Part shown: positions 9,017 to 35,356 of the stretch, one piece after another
Layout of the letters: each line of letters starts with the position of its first letter
How positions within the stretch are numbered: position 1 is the first letter of the stretch
Program-made: the position numbers and the translations under genes
Source of the DNA: an uncultured Coriobacteriaceae bacterium
GTDB lineage: Bacteria; Actinomycetota; Coriobacteriia; Coriobacteriales; Atopobiaceae
Direction of reading: 5' to 3'
Assembly: GCA_902797175.1 (NCBI GenBank)
Contig: CADBRX010000148.1
Location: forward strand, 1-36,989
Length of the DNA: 36,989 nucleotides
The notes under the pieces: model-generated
What the model was told of the DNA's origin: nothing
Seen by the model: only the letters and a program-made list of their open reading frames with translations
Database searches by the model: none

Positions 9017-9358
9017 GTGAACATCCAGATCTTTGGCACCAAGAAGAGCAGCGACGCACGCAAGGCGGAGCGCTGGTTCAAGGAGCGTCGCATCAAGTTC
9101 CAGTACGTCGACCTCAAGGAGAAGGGCCTTTCAAAGGGCGAGCTCGCCTCTGTCGCGCGGGCGGTCGGAGGCTTGGAGGAGCTCATAGACGAGCAGGCCA
9201 AGGACGGGTATGCGCTCGCCCTTGTCCAGCACACGCCCTCTTCCATGCTCGAGGGCGTCCTCCTCGAGAATCAGCAGGTCTTGCGTCAGCCCATCGTACG
9301 CAACGGACGCCAGGCAACCGTCGGCTACGCTCCTGAGGTTTGGAAGATGTGGGAATAA
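9017..9358 (+). CDS. ArsC/Spx-family thioredoxin-fold protein lacking all cysteines
   Basis: A 113-residue protein starting at GTG 9017 (GGAGGGAG 6 bases upstream). It has the ArsC-like pattern NIQIFGTKK..DARKAERWFKERRIKFQYVDL at the N-terminus and the C-terminal LRQPIVRNGRQATVGY that holds the conserved cis-Pro and Arg. Family members normally carry the catalytic Cys right after GTKK; here that position is Ser11, and there is no cysteine anywhere in the protein. Thiol-based arsenate reduction is therefore impossible, so it should not be called an arsenate reductase. It could be a binding or regulatory relative, as Spx is. It is paired with the DUF1275 gene. Confidence 0.82.
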   Translation: MNIQIFGTKKSSDARKAERWFKERRIKFQYVDLKEKGLSKGELASVARAVGGLEELIDEQAKDGYALALVQHTPSSMLEGVLLENQQVLRQPIVRNGRQATVGYAPEVWKMWE

Positions 9359-9388
9359 CGGAACACCCAATGCCGTTGCCCGTTCCGC
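9359..9388. repeat. Palindromic repeat unit, family 1 (single copy, core inverted relative to 12685-12754)
   Basis: A 30-bp unit running from CGGAACACCCAA to TTGCCCGTTCCGC. It matches the unit at 12686-12715 at 25 of 30 positions. The five differing central bases, TGCCG here and CGGCA there, are exact reverse complements. The outer CGGAAC/GTTCCG arms can pair. It lies between the ArsC-like and MATE genes. Confidence 0.75.
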
Positions 9389-9402: not shown

Positions 9403-10803
9403 ATGAAACATCTTTCCGCACTCATAGCTCCCCAGAAACAGACCCCCGAGGAGAAGCGCCGCGAGATGCTCGAGCGTCCCGTGCAGGATCTCATCTTCTC
9501 GCTTGCGGCGCCCTCCATCTTTGCCAACGTGGTGACCACCATCTACAACCTGGCCGACACGTTCTTTGTCGGGCAGATGGGAGAGACGAGCGCAAGTGCC
9601 GCCGTGGGTGTGGGCTTTGTCACCATGACGGTCATCCAGGCCATGGCGTTCTACTTTGCGCAAGGGACCGGCAACCCCATGAGCCGCTATCTGGGCGCAG
9701 GGGATCGCGAGCGAGCACGCGAGTTTGTCAACACGGGCCTCGCCGCAACGATAACCCTTGGCGTGCTCATCGCCCTGGTCGGACACCTTTTCTTGGACCA
9801 GCTATGCTACGTGGGCGGGGCGACCGAGACCATCCTCCCCTACGCCCGCACCTACATCGGCATCATCCTCTTTGGGGCGCCGTTCATCGCCAGCGGCTTC
9901 CTCATGAACATGCAGCTGCGCTTTCAGGGAGAGGCGTTCTACTCCATGCTCTGCATGGTCGCGGGCGCCGTGCTCAACACCATCCTCACGCCGATCCTCA
10001 TCTTTCCGTGCCATATGGGCATCGCCGGAAGCGCGCTCGCCACGGTCATCAGCGAGGCCTTCAGCTTTGTCCTGCTGCTTTTGCAGATGAACCGTGTGGG
10101 CATCACGCCGCTTTCTCTTAGCTACGTGCGCCTGCCCGATGGCGCCATGATGCGCGAGATCAACAACGGGGGCGTCCCCTCCTTTGCGCGCCAGGTGATG
10201 CTGGGCGTCGCGACCTCGCTGCTCAACAACGCCGCCGCGCCGTTTGGCGACGCCGCGATTGCGGGCATCGCCGTGGTGCAGCGCATCACCAGCGTGGGCA
10301 ACTTCTTCCAGATCGGCTTTGGCCAGGGCTTCCAGCCCATCGTGGGCTACAACCTGGGCGCCAAGCGTTACGACCGCATCCGCGAGGCCTACTTCACCGC
10401 GATCAGGGCGTCGTTTATTGCCGTAGCCGCCATCGGCGTGGTCACGTTTGTCTGGGCGCCGCAGCTCATCGCCGTCTTCCGCGACGATCCCGAGGTGGTC
10501 GCCTTTGCCACGCTCACCCTGCGCGTGGAGAGCGTCACGCTCCCCTTCACGTGCGTGGCCATGGCAACCAACTTCCTGCTCCAGACGAGCGGCAAGATGT
10601 GGCGCGCCACGTTCTTAGGCGCATGCCGCCTGGGCCTCGTGCTGGGGCCGGTCGTCCTCGTGCTTCCACCCCTTCTGGGGATGCTCGGCGTGCAGCTGGC
10701 CCAGCCCGTGACCGACATCATCACGACCCTCATAGCGCTGCCCATGGCAGCGAGCATCCTGGGTGAGCTGCGACAGATGGAGCGCTCTGGGCAAGCGGCG
10801 TAG
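9403..10803 (+). CDS. MATE-family multidrug/Na+(H+) antiporter
   Basis: A 466-residue polytopic protein with the MATE pattern: an N-terminal RPVQDLIFSLAAPSIFANVVTTIYNLADTFFVGQ half and a second half starting near residue 245 with NNGGVPSFARQVMLGVATSLLNN, each of about six helices. IGFGQGFQPIVGYNLGA is the classical MATE signature. It most resembles the MepA/DinF-like bacterial branch. Such proteins export cationic drugs or metabolites in exchange for Na+ or H+; the substrate is not predictable. There is no good Shine-Dalgarno, and TACTAT lies 8 bases before the ATG, so a very short leader is possible. The gene ends 7 bases from the convergent nagA. Confidence 0.9.
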   Translation: MKHLSALIAPQKQTPEEKRREMLERPVQDLIFSLAAPSIFANVVTTIYNLADTFFVGQMGETSASAAVGVGFVTMTVIQAMAFYFAQGTGNPMSRYLGAGDRERAREFVNTGLAATITLGVLIALVGHLFLDQLCYVGGATETILPYARTYIGIILFGAPFIASGFLMNMQLRFQGEAFYSMLCMVAGAVLNTILTPILIFPCHMGIAGSALATVISEAFSFVLLLLQMNRVGITPLSLSYVRLPDGAMMREINNGGVPSFARQVMLGVATSLLNNAAAPFGDAAIAGIAVVQRITSVGNFFQIGFGQGFQPIVGYNLGAKRYDRIREAYFTAIRASFIAVAAIGVVTFVWAPQLIAVFRDDPEVVAFATLTLRVESVTLPFTCVAMATNFLLQTSGKMWRATFLGACRLGLVLGPVVLVLPPLLGMLGVQLAQPVTDIITTLIALPMAASILGELRQMERSGQAA

Positions 10804-12176: not shown

Positions 12177-12623
12177 ATGAGCAGCTACATCGATTCTACC
12201 CGCGTCTTCCTCGACAACCCGGCAACCACGGTGGAGGAGGTTTTTGCCTTCCTGTCCGACAAGGCCGTCGAGCTGGGCATCTCTGATGACCGCGATGCTG
12301 TCCTCGAGGCATTCAAGGCCCGCGAGGCTCTCGGCTCCACCGGCATGCACGGCGGATTTGCCATCCCGCACGCCAAGACCGACGCCGTCAAGCAGGCCGC
12401 CCTTATTGCCGTGAAGTTTGACAACGAGATCGAGTGGGCCTCCCAGGACGGCAAGCCCATCAAGGCCGCCATCGCCCTGTTCGCGCCTGCGAGCGACCCC
12501 ACCACCTATCTTAACCTGCTCTCCAAGGTGGCCGTCCTGCTCGTCAACGAGAACTTCTGCTGGAAGTTCCTCTCCTCCTCCGACGCCGCAGAGATCGCAT
12601 CTGCCGTGGCTGCCGGCCTGTAG
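12177..12623 (+). CDS. PTS fructose/mannitol-type EIIA protein (stand-alone)
   Basis: A 148-residue single-domain EIIA of the fructose/nitrogen-PTS type, with GGAGG 9 bases before the ATG. The phosphorylated histidine is His65 in GGFAIPHAKTD. The N-terminal segment YIDSTRVFLDNPATTVEEVFAFLSDKA matches the family. It would receive phosphate from HPr and pass it to an EIIB, or act as a regulator like PtsN. No EIIB, EIIC or other PTS gene is present in the window, so its partner lies elsewhere. It is expressed alone, between divergent nagA and convergent ROK kinase, and ends in its own terminator. Confidence 0.88.
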   Translation: MSSYIDSTRVFLDNPATTVEEVFAFLSDKAVELGISDDRDAVLEAFKAREALGSTGMHGGFAIPHAKTDAVKQAALIAVKFDNEIEWASQDGKPIKAAIALFAPASDPTTYLNLLSKVAVLLVNENFCWKFLSSSDAAEIASAVAAGL

Positions 12624-12646: not shown

Positions 12647-12684
12647 GGTGGGCGGGTGTCACATGGCACCCGCCCACCCTTTCT
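12647..12684 (+). terminator. Rho-independent terminator after the EIIA gene
   Basis: The 12-bp arms GGTGGGCGGGTG (12647-12658) and its complement (12667-12678) enclose an 8-base loop and are followed by CTTTCT. It is immediately adjacent to the 70-bp palindrome. Confidence 0.75.
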
Positions 12685-12754
12685 GCGGAACACCCAACGG
12701 CATTGCCCGTTCCGCCGCATGCGGCGGAACGGGCAATGCCGTTGGGTGTTCCGC
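12685..12754. repeat. Perfect 70-bp palindrome (two head-to-head family 1 repeat units)
   Basis: The left half 12685-12719 and right half 12720-12754 are exact reverse complements with no spacer (centre CCGCA|TGCGG). Each half contains the 30-bp unit also seen in variant form at 9359-9388. It lies between the convergent EIIA and glucokinase genes and could form a cruciform or act as a bidirectional terminator. No T-run flanks it. Confidence 0.92.
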
Positions 12755-12767
12755 GCTCTTACGCTTG

Positions 12768-13718
12768 CTACTCAGCTTCCTTGCGCTCGGAAAGTGCCTG
12801 GAAGGCGCAGCCATACATGGCGGCGTCGTTGCCCAAGCTCGCCGGCAGGATGCGCGTGCTGGCACTCGGGGCGAGGCAATACTTGCGATAGGAGGCACGG
12901 AGGTCTTCGGCATACAGGTTGAAGCCGCCACCCACGCCGCCGCCGATCAGGTAGACCTGCGGGTCGACGACGAGCGAGATCTGCGCCATGGCATAGCCAA
13001 GGTAATCGCACATGGCGTCGATGGCAGCCTTGGCGGCCTTGTCGCCCGCGCGATGGGCATTGAAGACGGAGAGCGTGTCGGTCGGGCCGTCCAGGTTGAC
13101 GGGCGTGATGCCCAGGCGCTCGCATTCGGCCTTGTAGCCGTTGACGATGCCCTTGGCGGAGGCGTACTGCTCGAGGCAGCCCTTGCGGCCGCAGCCGCAG
13201 GTCTCGGTCTCGTCGCGATTGACCGTGATGTGGCCGATCTCGCCGCCGGCTCCAAAGGCGCCCGAGACGAGCTTGCCGCCGGCAACCACGCCGCCGCCCA
13301 CGCCGGTGCCGATGGCGATGAGCACGAAGCTCTTGGAGCCACGTGCCGTACCCTGCCACAGCTCGCCCAGGGCAGCTGCGTTGGCATCGTTCACGAAGGC
13401 GAGGTTGGCGCGCGGGAACGTGCGCTTGATGGCGGCCTGCAGCCCCTCGGGGTCGAGCTCGATGTTGGCGAGCATGCCCACCTTGCCGTCATCGTCAACC
13501 GGACCGGGAACGTCAAGGCCGATGGCGATGACATCATCGGGGGTGCCGCCGTTCTCCGCAAGCAGTCCCTTGAGGCCGTTGGTGACGACGGCAAACGCCG
13601 CCTCGCTCACGATCTCGCCCGTCGGGATCTTGGTGACAGCCTCAAGCGTGCCCTCGGTCGAGAACAGGCCGACCTTGATGCTCGTACCGCCGATGTCAAT
13701 GCCCAGCACACGATCCAT
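12768..13718 (-). CDS. glk: ROK-family glucokinase
   Basis: A 316-residue ROK sugar kinase; the ATG at 13718 has AAGGAG 8 bases upstream, so the longer frame to 13751 is rejected. Visible are the ATP-binding GIDIGGTSIKVG (6-17), GLDVPGPVD, catalytic Asp111 in FVNDANAAALGE, IGTGVGGGVV, the ROK signature GEIGHITV with zinc ligand His163, and the zinc cluster CGCGRKGCLE (Cys174, Cys176, Cys181). Length and motifs fit glucokinases of Gram-positive bacteria; the substrate could also be another hexose or N-acetylmannosamine. It acts in the cytoplasm, producing hexose-6-phosphate, and complements the nearby nagA and EIIA. Confidence 0.88.
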   Translation of the reverse strand: MDRVLGIDIGGTSIKVGLFSTEGTLEAVTKIPTGEIVSEAAFAVVTNGLKGLLAENGGTPDDVIAIGLDVPGPVDDDGKVGMLANIELDPEGLQAAIKRTFPRANLAFVNDANAAALGELWQGTARGSKSFVLIAIGTGVGGGVVAGGKLVSGAFGAGGEIGHITVNRDETETCGCGRKGCLEQYASAKGIVNGYKAECERLGITPVNLDGPTDTLSVFNAHRAGDKAAKAAIDAMCDYLGYAMAQISLVVDPQVYLIGGGVGGGFNLYAEDLRASYRKYCLAPSASTRILPASLGNDAAMYGCAFQALSERKEAE

Positions 13719-13929
13719 GGTGAATTCTCCTTCCAGATAGACGCAATGCACGTCAAAAAACTACCAACCAGTATCGCTCAAAAGCACGGGGTGTGAACAT
13801 CGTATCGACAGGCGAGCAATGCGCACCGCTGGGCTACACTCAATGGGAAGAACAAAGGCGCCGTCCCCAAGAGACGGGAACAACGGCACCTCCACGTCAC
13901 AGAGCGGATGCACCAACGAACGGAGAGTC

Positions 13930-16511: not shown

Positions 16512-16563
16512 CTCACGCAAGAAGAAGGGCGACCCCTGGGGGCCGCCCTTCTTCTTGCGTGAG
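16512..16563. terminator. Bidirectional terminator hairpin between mscL and the DUF4956 gene
   Basis: Perfect 20-bp arms (16512-16531 and 16544-16563) enclose a 12-base loop that can itself pair CCCC with GGGG. The arms contain AAGAAGAAGGG and CCCTTCTTCTT. It separates two convergent genes and is likely shared by both. Confidence 0.85.
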
Positions 16564-24982: not shown

Positions 24983-25021
24983 ACCATGACTCACAAGGGT
25001 CCCACCCATTTGAGTCAAATT

Positions 25022-25050
25022 GACTCGGAAGGGAGCGTCCCTTCCGAGTC
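25022..25050. terminator. Hairpin, family 2 palindromic repeat, terminator of the DUF2130 gene
   Basis: Perfect 13-bp arms GACTCGGAAGGGA (25022-25034) and complement (25038-25050) have a 3-base loop. On the minus strand the hairpin is followed by AATTT. It shares the 15-base word GGGAGCGTCCCTTCC with the large palindrome at 35280-35349. A further small palindrome, GAGTCAAATTGACTC, lies beside it at 25012-25026. Confidence 0.65.
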
Positions 25051-25053
25051 AGG

Positions 25054-26466
25054 CTATTCGCCTGGCTCCACCTCGTCAGGCTCGACAGGCGTGTCATCCG
25101 CATCCTCGCGCAGGGCACGTGCCTCGGCAAAGGCGGCGCGCATGGTGGGGTTCTTGTACGTCAGCTTGCGAATGGTAAGCGCGTCAGCCTTGTCGTTGGC
25201 AAGGCGCAGCTGGCGCTCAGACGACGTGAGGCTCTCCTTGACGCGCTGGAGATCTGCGATGGCGCGGTCGATCTGGTCGATGGCATCGTTGAACTTGCGG
25301 CTCGCACGCTCGTAGTTGGCGCCAAACTCGCGCTTGAACTTCTCCATGCGCTCTTCGAAGTGCGTCACGTCTATGTTCTGCTGACGCACCGCGGCCAGCT
25401 CGCGCCGCGCCTCGAGCCCCGCCAGCGCGGCGTTGCGCAGGATGGTGATCATGGGCACGAAGAGCTGCGGGCGGATGACGTACATCTTGGGATACTCATA
25501 GCTCACGTCGGCAATGCCGCCGTTGTAGAACTCGTTCTCGGGCTCGAGCATGCTGACCAGCACCGCATACTCGCAGTTCTTGTTGCGGCGGTCCTGGTCG
25601 AGCTTCTTGAAGAAGTCGGCGTTCTTGTGGTGGTGGACGCTGTCCTCCTCCTCGGTCTTCATCTCGAACATGATGGAGAGGATCTCTACACCGTCCTCGT
25701 CCACCTCGCGATAGACGTAGTCGCCCTTGGAGCCGCCGACCACCTCGTTGTCCTTGTGGAACTCGGCATTTCTGAACGCGGTGGCACGCCAGCGGTTGAA
25801 CTCCATCTCGCAGTGCTGCTCGAGCGACTCGCCAATCAGCTTGGTGGTAAGTCGCGTGCGCTGGTCACGCAGGCGGGCAATCTCGTCATCGCGGTCACGG
25901 AGCTGCGCGTCTTTGTACGCCACCTGCTCGTTCATGCGCACGGTGAGCGCCGCCTCGACCTGGTCGCGCTCGGTCTGCGCCTGCCTAACCTGGCCTTCCA
26001 GCTCCACGACGTGGCGCTCCGCCTCGGCGGTTGCGGTCGCCACGGCCAGGGCCTGCTCTGCCTGGTGCGTGGCCCCCAGGGAGGAGATCTGCTGCTCGAG
26101 GGCGCCAATGCGGGCGTCTCGCTCCGCGACCTGCGCCTCGAGCTGCGCCTGCTCGGCGTCTCTCTCCCTCAGGGCGTCCGACACGGCCCCTTCCACCGCC
26201 AGGCGCCGCGTCTCGTCAAAGGCCGCAACCTGTGCGCTCAGCTGCGCAATCTGCGCATCGCGCGCAGCAAGCTCCTGGTCGCGCTCCCCCCTCGCCTTCA
26301 GGCGCTCTGCCTCGACGGCACGTTCGTGCGCCACCTTGAGCAGGCGCTCCCGCTCGGAAAGGTCGCGCTCGAACTCCGCGTCGCGCACCTGTCTGAGCAG
26401 ATTTGCATATCCCGACTCGTCAACTTGGAAAACCTTGCCGCAGTGTGGGCATCGAATCTCGTTCAT
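25054..26466 (-). CDS. DUF2130 protein: zinc-ribbon, coiled coil and nuclease-like domain
   Basis: A 470-residue protein. The ATG at 26466 is chosen because the family begins with [13 protein letters not shown] and GAGGGA lies upstream. After the CPHC motif (residues 6-9) comes a long Glu/Gln/Arg-rich coiled coil (about 30-220). Then follows the DUF2130 core with [18 protein letters not shown] and [15 protein letters not shown], a D...E-x-K arrangement like PD-(D/E)XK nucleases. [18 protein letters not shown] and [13 protein letters not shown] are also conserved in the family. A second coiled coil closes the protein. Function is not established; DNA or RNA handling is a reasonable inference. 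It is a single gene divergent from the cysteine desulfidase gene. Confidence 0.87.
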
Positions 26467-26620
26467 GTGCGCTCCCTCGTAGCCATCCTCTTGCCCATAA
26501 GCATACGTCACGTGCCGGACAACAAAGGCGTCAGGATTGCCAAGCTGTGCCTTTGGGCTTTCCCACGCGCAACGTTCCATGCGATAATGCGCACATACCA
26601 TGTCGCACAAAGGAGCACCC

Positions 26621-33179: not shown

Positions 33180-35270
33180 ATGGCCAAGGACAAGGTCAGC
33201 AGCGAGTGGGGGGAACTCCTCTTCGACGACGCCGACATGCAGGAACGCCTGCCCAAGCCCACCTATCGGGAGCTCATGCGGGTCATCAAGGACGGCAAGC
33301 CTCTCGATCTTGACATTGCCAACGAGGTGGCCCATGCCATGAAGGAGTGGGCGCTGGAGAAGGGTGCCACGCATTTCACGCACTGGTTCCAGCCCCTGAC
33401 GGGCATCACGAGCGAAAAGCACGACAGCTTCCTCACGCCCAACGGTGACGGCACCATCCTCATGGCCTTCAGCGGCAAGGAGCTCGTCCAGGGCGAGCCT
33501 GACGCGTCCAGCTTCCCAAGCGGAGGCCTGCGGGCTACCTTCGAGGCGCGCGGCTACACCGTCTGGGACCCGACCAGCCCCGCGTTCATCAAGGACGAGG
33601 TGCTCTGCATCCCCACAGCCTTTATCTCCTATACCGGAGAAGCACTTGACAAGAAGACGCCTCTCCTGCGCAGCCAGGTCGCACTCGAGATGCAGGCAAA
33701 GCGCGTCCTTTCCCTCTTTGGGCGCGAGCCACACCGCGTCACCACCAACATTGGCCCCGAGCAGGAATACTTCCTCATCAAGGAAAGTGACTACCAGGCA
33801 CGTCCCGACCTCATCCTTACGGGACGCACCCTCTTTGGCGCTCCCCCTGCCAAGGGACAGGAGCTGGAGGAGCACTACTTTGGTGCCATCCGCCCCACGG
33901 TCAACGAGTTCATGAAGGAGCTCGACGACGAGCTCTGGAAGCTGGGCGTGCCCGCCAAGACCAAGCACAACGAGGTCGCGCCCTGCCAGCATGAGCTGGC
34001 GCCCATCTATGAGCAGGGATCGGTCGCCATCGACGACAACCTGCTCACCATGGAGAAGATGAAGCTCCTTGCCTCTCACCATGGACTCGTGTGCCTGCAG
34101 CACGAAAAGCCCTTCGAATACGTGAACGGTTCGGGCAAGCATGACAACTGGTCCCTCTCGGCAGACGGCAAGAACCTCCTTGAGCCAGGTGAGCATCCCG
34201 AGGACAACCTCCTGTTCCTGGTGTTTCTTGCCTGCCTGGTGGCCGCGGTCGACGAACATGCCGACCTTCTGCGCATGAGCGTCGCCTCTGCCGGAAACGA
34301 CCACCGTCTGGGCGCCAACGAGGCCCCGCCAGCCATCGTGTCCGTCTTCTTGGGCGACAACCTCTCCCCCGTCGTTGAGGCACTCATCCACAAGGAGCAG
34401 GCGGAGGCGCACGAGAGCGAGCTGATGGACCTCGGCGTTCCCCAGCTGCCCGACATCCTGCGCGACAACACCGACCGCAACAGGACCTCCCCCTTTGCCT
34501 TCACCGGCAACAAGTTCGAGTTCCGCATGCCGGGAAGCCGCCAGAATCTCGCCGATCCCAACGTGGTGCTCAACACCGCCGTCGCAGAACAGTGCGACCG
34601 CTTCGTCAACTATGTGGCTGACCGTTCCGAAGAGCCCTTCACGCAGGTGGCCATGCGCTTCGTGCGCCATACCTTCCGCGACCACCAGCGCGTCATCTTC
34701 AATGGCAATGGCTATTCGCAGGAGTGGGAGGAGGAGGCAGAGCGCCGTGGCCTTCCCAACATCAAGGCCACGCCTGATGCGCTGCCCGCGCTTCTCGACC
34801 CCGCAAACATCGCGCTCTTCGAGAAGTACGGCGTGCTGACCGAGGCCGAGATGCACGCACGCTATGTGGCAAAGGCAGAGCAGTACGCAAAGCTCATCAA
34901 CATCGAGGCCAACTGCATGGTCGACATGGCTCGCAGGCTCTACGTCCCCGCCATCTCATCCTATGCGGGCGACCTCGCCACGGCCGTTGCCGCAAAGGCA
35001 GAGCTGGGCATCTCCAGCCCCTCCGAAAAGGGCATCATCACCAGACTGACCCGCGGCATCGACGCCATCTGGAGCCTCGCTGACGACCTGGAGTCGCGTA
35101 ACTACAAGGCACGCGGCATCGAGGACCCTGGCGAGCAGGACCACTTCTACCTGAACGAGGTGCTCCCCGCAATGCAGGCGCTGCGTGACGAGGTCGACGC
35201 ACTCGAGCCGATGGTGGGCGACAGCTGGTGGCCCGTGCCCACCTACAACACGATCCTGTACTACGTGTAG
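33180..35270 (+). CDS. glnN: Glutamine synthetase type III
   Basis: A 696-residue GSIII enzyme, much longer than GSI (about 450), as is typical for this class. The ribosome binding site GGGAGG is 5 bases from the ATG. Active-site signatures: [11 protein letters not shown] (190-200), [19 protein letters not shown] (260-278), a glycine/HDNW segment (HDNWSLS, 321-327), [20 protein letters not shown] and [18 protein letters not shown]. It makes glutamine from glutamate, ammonia and ATP as a large cytoplasmic oligomer. GSIII lacks the adenylylation loop of GSI, so control is probably at transcription. The gene is single and ends in a large palindrome shared with the convergent amylase gene. Confidence 0.96.
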
Positions 35271-35279
35271 CCCGAGACC

Positions 35280-35356
35280 GGCTTGGAAGGGACGCTCCCC
35301 CTTGCGTCACCCCACGGGGTGACGCAAGGGGGAGCGTCCCTTCCAAGCCTCTTTTG
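35280..35356. terminator. 34-bp-arm perfect hairpin, family 2 repeat, bidirectional terminator
   Basis: The left arm 35280-35313 and right arm 35316-35349 are exact complements around a 2-base loop (AC). TCTTTTG follows on the plus strand. It lies between convergent glnN and the amylase gene, and the outer part of the right arm contains GGGAGCGTCCCTTCC, as in the hairpin at 25022-25050. Confidence 0.88.

Follow-up and report, generated by a model that had tools for sequence, protein, structure and literature searches.

The stretch of DNA analysed here (the window) is 36,989 nt long and comes from a 2.25-Mb draft genome of 194 contigs that is 81.6% complete. An ArsC-family gene at 9017–9358 on the plus strand ends in TAA, and a single 29-bp unit at 9359–9387 (+) lies directly 3′ of this stop codon. 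Fifteen nucleotides separate the unit from the next ATG, where a MATE transporter gene begins (9403–10803, +). Further on, a PTS EIIA gene (12177–12623, +; longest open reading frame from 12027) and a convergent ROK-family, glucokinase-like gene (12768–13751, −) flank a perfect 70-bp palindrome at 12685–12754. The palindrome is made of two further units, a left arm at 12686–12714 (+) and a right arm at 12725–12753 (−), the latter 14 nt from the end of the ROK gene. A separate short hairpin with 12-bp arms occupies 12647–12678, in the interval between the EIIA gene and the palindrome. The predicted RNA fold of 12680–12760, the sole pair of this family that was folded, was −75.8 kcal/mol (z −13). 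Rfam gave no match over the window at gathering scores. Relatives of the ROK protein at about 80–92% identity came mostly from uncultured Atopobiaceae and Coriobacteriaceae assemblies, several of them labelled animal gut.

The initial annotation had described the two plus-strand units as having exactly common flanks around cores that are reverse complements, and this was confirmed. Positions 9359–9388 read CGGAACACCCAA-TGCCG-TTGCCCGTTCCGC and positions 12686–12715 read CGGAACACCCAA-CGGCA-TTGCCCGTTCCGC. Over the 29-bp units (9359–9387 vs. 12686–12714), 24 of the 24 positions outside the 5-bp core are identical, and the core TGCCG (9371–9375, +), which is bounded by the 3-bp inverted repeat CAA/TTG, is the exact reverse complement of CGGCA. 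The unit at 12686–12714 is a palindrome arm and not a free copy. It pairs with the minus-strand unit at 12725–12753 and, therefore, reading that second arm on the plus strand gives the "other" core. The accompanying claim that point mutation alone would not give such a difference was overstated because the cores differ by just three substitutions (C/T, G/C, and A/G), although the simulation given below makes substitution unlikely.

Copies of the unit were collected with a model built on the flanks alone; masking the core kept its orientation from biasing the search. At least 39 hits were obtained at E-values up to 1, with 150 of 736 first-look candidates scored, so there may be more weak copies. 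From these 39, we removed two weak or coding hits and one half copy and added one partner arm, which gave 37. One dropped hit (contig C160, position 12769) has a matching stretch with the same surroundings on contig C164 of the sister genome G003 and was, therefore, taken as conserved coding sequence. The other (C193:357) was dropped as too weak (E 0.025); its core, GGCCG, resembles the reversed core. The half copy at C70:26367 belongs to the single on C70, and the partner arm on C92 had been missed by the model and was added from flanking sequence. The 37 units of this family (family 1) occupy 22 sites as 15 inverted pairs and 7 singles, in agreement with the earlier proposal of a small palindromic repeat family. 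The unit is CGGAAC-ACC-CAA-CGGCA-TTG-CCC-GTTCCG, a 29-bp layout of 6-3-3-5-3-3-6. As a control, the flank pattern had 30 matches in the genome at up to three mismatches and the same pattern read backwards had none.

Core orientation was nearly constant in family 1. The cores of all 30 paired units were CGGCA or CGGCG or, in one pair, had the same 1-bp deletion in both arms, and five of the seven singles had CGGCA or CGGCG. The family, thus, does not consist of many unrelated cores among which an exact complement would be a coincidence. A clear reversal was seen in one of the 37 units, that at 9359, with all flank positions unchanged. One more single (C28:8573) has the core CGCCG, the reverse of CGGCG, and is ambiguous since CGCCG is also one substitution from CGGCG. 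The prediction that both core versions would be present in many places was consequently not supported for family 1; it held in a second family described below, in many places relative to the arms, with drift of arm triplets as a live alternative.

One possible origin of the 9359 core is coincidence, with C to T, G to C, and A to G changes arising independently and together producing the reverse complement. Just three differences are needed, two of which are transitions, and, of the 34 other units, 5 have G at the fifth core position and 1 has C at the third. T at core position 1, however, is found in 0/34, and the 24 flanking positions are all unchanged. We simulated independent substitution with rates taken from the 34 other units, treating sites and units as independent, which paired units are not, and leaving out the C144 pair that carries the 1-bp deletion (it was also left out of the pairing table). 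Exact reversals of at least three changes were expected about 0.0005 times in 37 units (5 in 400,000 simulated units), and the TGCCG core alone 0.003 times in 37 copies. Coincident substitution is, on these numbers, an improbable origin.

Reversed cores were biased toward singles when the ambiguous C28 copy was included (2/7 vs. 0/30; Fisher p = 0.03, calculated by hand) but not clearly without it (1/7 vs. 0/30, p = 0.19). The counts are small and fit a process in which flips survive in singles. In predicted RNA folds, reversing one core in the pair at 12685 changed the energy from −75.8 to −66.4 kcal/mol, a cost of 9.4, while the single unit at 9359 folded to −7.7 kcal/mol and to −7.2 with the usual core, so that its two orientations differ by 0.5.

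With genes called by a codon-usage caller written for this analysis, none of the 22 family-1 elements was inside a called gene, and 21 of them lay 0–47 nt past the nearest stop codon (0–4 nt for the seven singles). The exception is the C114 pair, which has the opposite polarity and is the sole element between divergent genes. Convergent genes flank 8 of the elements, 2 of which share a spacer, and co-directional genes flank 12; of the other two, one has divergent neighbours and one lies at a contig edge. TAG precedes five units and is the called stop of the neighbouring gene in four of these (C42, C28, C159:19968, and C160) but not at C70:4927. This placement just past stop codons, in convergent or co-directional contexts, is what would be seen if the elements were ordinary intrinsic terminators that are similar by chance. 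A T-rich tract (at least 5 T in the 8 nt past the hairpin, on either strand) was, however, found at only 1 of the 15 pairs, so the family-1 pairs are not standard intrinsic terminators. The hairpin at 12647–12678 also lies beside the EIIA gene as a separate structure, and the sequence has 22 occurrences in one species and is nearly absent from its family. Chance likeness among terminators is, therefore, very improbable. In E. coli, REP elements that lie near a stop codon influence translation or the decay of mRNA. The elements described here may act at the level of RNA.

The distribution of family 1 was examined among relatives. At up to three mismatches, matches were present in 2 of 140 genomes of the bacterial family, namely the source genome and G003, which has one decayed pair, and the unit was absent from the 17 other congeners at up to two mismatches. 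By these counts, family 1 is nearly confined to one species. A match in a congener (G007:C24:175806) was taken as chance. Exact-pattern scans returned 0 stretches each in public genome contigs and in viral contigs, collections from which records very near the source genome were possibly excluded. The unit was found at the same ArsC-side spacer in 0 of 10 relatives examined and, since all 10 spacers are without it, the ancestral state of the 9359 core is not polarisable. The G007 spacer at this site (L091) has a single hairpin with a GGGGTAGCCCC centre. At two sites on C159, G003 lacks the unit and carries other DNA instead, so these sites provide no clean insertion junction.

The spacer beside the ROK gene was compared in the 17 congeners. 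The EIIA gene was convergent in 6 loci, in the same direction in 10 (53–63% identical to the EIIA of the window), and not found in 1. Three of the six convergent loci (G002, G003, and G007) have a long palindrome of different sequence just past the ROK gene, with arms of 32 bp in G002 and 22 bp in G003 by script, and of 33 bp with two mismatches in G007, found by eye and then checked. The other three (G006, G009, and G013) have just hairpins with 16-bp arms, and in the roughly 330 nt examined at each of the 10 same-direction loci no palindrome with arms of at least 12 bp was found by script. Paired GGGGTAGCCCC centres were present in G002, G003, and G007 (ROK spacers L066, L082, and L065) and were absent from the 15 others.

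A second family was found around a transposase gene. The Y1-transposase family had one match in the genome, a 252-aa gene at 1165–1923 of locus L049 (G000:C134), which scored above the cut-off for Y1_Tnp and below that of the REP-associated transposase model NF047646 (48.8 of 80 bits). A search of solved structures with this protein gave no hits at E 0.1. The gene is flanked not by family 1 but by pairs of another unit (family 2), which start at 1037 and 1922. The TGA stop of the gene shares two bases with the start of the downstream unit. The family-2 unit is GATACG-TAG-GGG-TGGGA-CCC-TTT-CGTATC, which has the 6-3-3-5-3-3-6 layout of family 1 and a different sequence. In the source genome, its motif had 99 + 109 matches at up to three mismatches, some of which are one unit matched on both strands; there were 8 in G003, 4 in G008, and 0–1 in each of the other congeners, against 0–2 for a reversed-pattern control. 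No transposase was found adjoining family 1 in this 81.6% complete genome. Spread by the RAYT-like transposase may be supposed for these elements, with the link being to family 2 only.

Our family-2 census covers part of the family, namely 56 fetched stretches from among the matches listed and the transposase locus. Of 99 windows that fit the layout, the 95 with core TGGGA or TCCCA were used and the 4 with other cores were dropped. Of the 57 elements formed by the 95 units, 19 are singles and 38 are neighbouring pairs, with inverted orientation in 36. In a hand-picked sample of 20 of the 57, the distance to a stop codon was −2 to 27 nt throughout, with 10 elements in convergent and 10 in co-directional contexts. 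A mixed pair of this layout is present in the window at 24988–25050; one unit (24988–25016) has the core TCCCA within GGG-core-CCC and an outer stem of GACTCA/TGAGTC, and its neighbour (25022–25050), 3 nt from the end of the gene at 25054–26511 (−), has the core AGCGT. Family-2-type stems with the core AGTAT were seen at L250 (G000:C101:5237) and L256 (G000:C158:30707), which suggests that cores may be exchanged as well as flipped. Two other structures in the window were noted. The long palindrome at 35273–35356 has 41-bp arms, 37 positions of which are paired, with GGG-ACGCT-CCC inside, and separates a gene whose end is at 35270 from a convergent amylase-family gene; it resembles the family-2 centre, and its arms differ. 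The hairpin at 16512–16563 has 25-bp arms with 24 positions paired and convergent genes on either side, and bears no evident likeness to either family.

In family 2, orientation was read relative to the arms. In the orientation that gives TGGGA as the core, 21 units had TAG/AAA as arm triplets and 10 had AAA/TAG. A per-element vote among the 45 elements with a single arm state gave nine for one phase and four for the other; the 12 of 57 elements that carry two arm states were left out. The reversed phase was more frequent than after shuffling of the right-hand triplets (4 vs. 1.07 expected, p = 0.003), and four pairs had the reversed phase in both arms with zero differences between arms. Because TAA, AAG, and AAA are frequent triplets, these phases could also have arisen by stepwise change of the arms.

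The arms of a pair were much more alike than arms taken from different pairs. In family 1, the mean number of differences was 1.33 within pairs and 3.58 between the arms of shuffled pairs (p = 5e-5, n = 15), and in family 2 the values were 1.22 and 4.04 (p = 5e-5, n = 36 pairs). The excerpted account of Abraham and Hazkani-Covo (2021, PMC8604942) describes template switching between inverted-repeat arms as homogenising the arms and inverting the spacers, and the abstract of PMC8794818 describes it as mending stems. We consider it probable that the elements are REP-like mobile palindromes whose arms are homogenised, and whose cores are occasionally inverted, by template switching during replication. 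The unit at 9359 would then be a lone copy of a REP-like element specific to the species. This element is a quasi-palindrome of 29 bp, in which a 6-bp stem, 3 mostly unpaired positions, a 3-bp stem, and the 5-bp core are followed by the mirror image. It occurs mostly as an inverted pair just past a stop codon, and when transcribed there it would give the mRNA a hairpin close to its 3′ end. A replicating polymerase could switch between complementary arms and back. A switch within a pair would copy one arm onto the other and keep the long hairpin nearly perfect, while a switch that starts at CAA and returns at TTG, whether inside a single unit or onto an inverted copy, would invert just the 5-bp core. 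In a single, such a flip would survive because it is nearly neutral for the fold; in one arm of a pair, it would spoil the long stem. One process would account for both the near-perfect pairs and the core reversal at 9359. The likeness of arms, but not the reversal, could also be explained by selection for RNA pairing.

The initial annotation had suggested that the core flipped through strand switching in a hairpin, and this is the best of the explanations considered, with only 0.0005 exact reversals expected by independent substitution. Some points count against it. The inner stem at the switch points is just 3 bp, with 9 of 12 arm positions paired, and the clear flip amounts to a single event seen in a single draft genome, each species being represented by one genome. 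The same excerpts of PMC8604942 report spacer inversions in yeast only with arms longer than 9 bp, though 1 of 10 began from a 5-bp arm.

Another possible explanation is that the 9359 unit is a deletion patchwork of a longer alternating array (a unit, a reverse unit, and a unit). The CAA and TTG junctions are common to both orientations, and a partial tandem copy of the unit exists at C70:26367–26413. Two deletions with 3-bp junctions would be required, however, and no array of three full units was found among the 22 elements, which makes this origin quite unlikely. A site-specific recombinase that inverts the 5-bp core in the style of phase variation had also been proposed. Inverted repeats do bound the core and both orientations exist, but the clear flip is limited to 1 of the 37 units, and no recombinase was linked to family 1 in a genome-wide search that covered the Y1 transposase family. 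To our knowledge, a 5-bp segment between 3-bp repeats is also far below the size of known invertible segments. The recombinase proposal is, thus, unsupported, and we regard it as highly improbable. Template switching would remain the probable cause of the flip.

We compared both families with known systems, as far as the excerpted descriptions of these extend. Family 1 is like REP/REPIN elements (Bertels and Rainey 2011, PMC3116915) in being a short (29-bp) palindromic unit with many extragenic copies, and in forming inverted doublets predicted to fold into hairpins (15 of the 22 elements) with singles alongside. Its mostly convergent or co-directional positions downstream of coding regions also match (PMC3116915, PMC3733652). 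Unlike REP/REPIN elements, neither unit has a constant GTAG or CGTC terminal tag beside it (tags as given in PMC3733652). TIRtrons, as described there by Di Nocera et al. (2013, PMC3733652), contain RAYT-like TIRYT genes flanked by inverted repeats, with the TIR elements in dimers or clusters. Like these TIRs, family 2 is self-complementary, occurs as singles and dimers, and flanks a Y1, RAYT-like gene. The motif GGGGWSAS of some TIRs is, in contrast, unmatched by family 2, which has GGGGTGGG, and family 1, unlike TIRtrons, has no adjoining transposase in this incomplete genome. In short, family 1 agrees with REP elements in its unit size, its copy number, its inverted doublets, and its position past genes, and family 2 resembles the TIRs of TIRtrons. 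Core reversal is not mentioned in the excerpted TIRtron description (PMC3733652). The spacer inversions in yeast (Abraham and Hazkani-Covo 2021, PMC8604942) are, in the excerpts, similar in that a short spacer is exactly inverted with the arms unchanged, through two to five substitutions there and three here. Those cases differ in being in yeast coding genes with mostly previously perfect arms of more than 9 bp, compared to a bacterial repeat with an interrupted 12-bp arm. Our literature search found no paper joining REP elements with template switching, spacer inversion with bacterial genomes, or Atopobiaceae with REP elements, and a search for Coriobacteria with palindromic repeats gave, among the papers listed and judged by title, unrelated ones only.

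Between them, the two families provide 51 inverted pairs in one genome (15 and 36 examined), and arm likeness and core orientation can be read directly from these. Template switching at bacterial palindromes can, therefore, be studied in natural sequence. The data also serve as a warning that short "inversions" within palindromic repeats require no recombinase. A broader idea, which we consider unlikely, is that both 29-bp families are cognate versions of a common 6-3-3-5-3-3-6 design. In it, a 3-bp stem would separate an asymmetric core from asymmetric arm triplets, core and arms would flip recurrently relative to one another, and the two arms of a pair would come to share a phase. Core inversion would belong to the replication or repair of the elements, perhaps via single-stranded hairpin intermediates of the Y1 (RAYT-like) transposase. 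If this were true, core inversion would be a regular step for REP-like elements and no rare accident. The findings bear on how REP-like hairpins stay nearly perfect and on how sequence families turn over between species.
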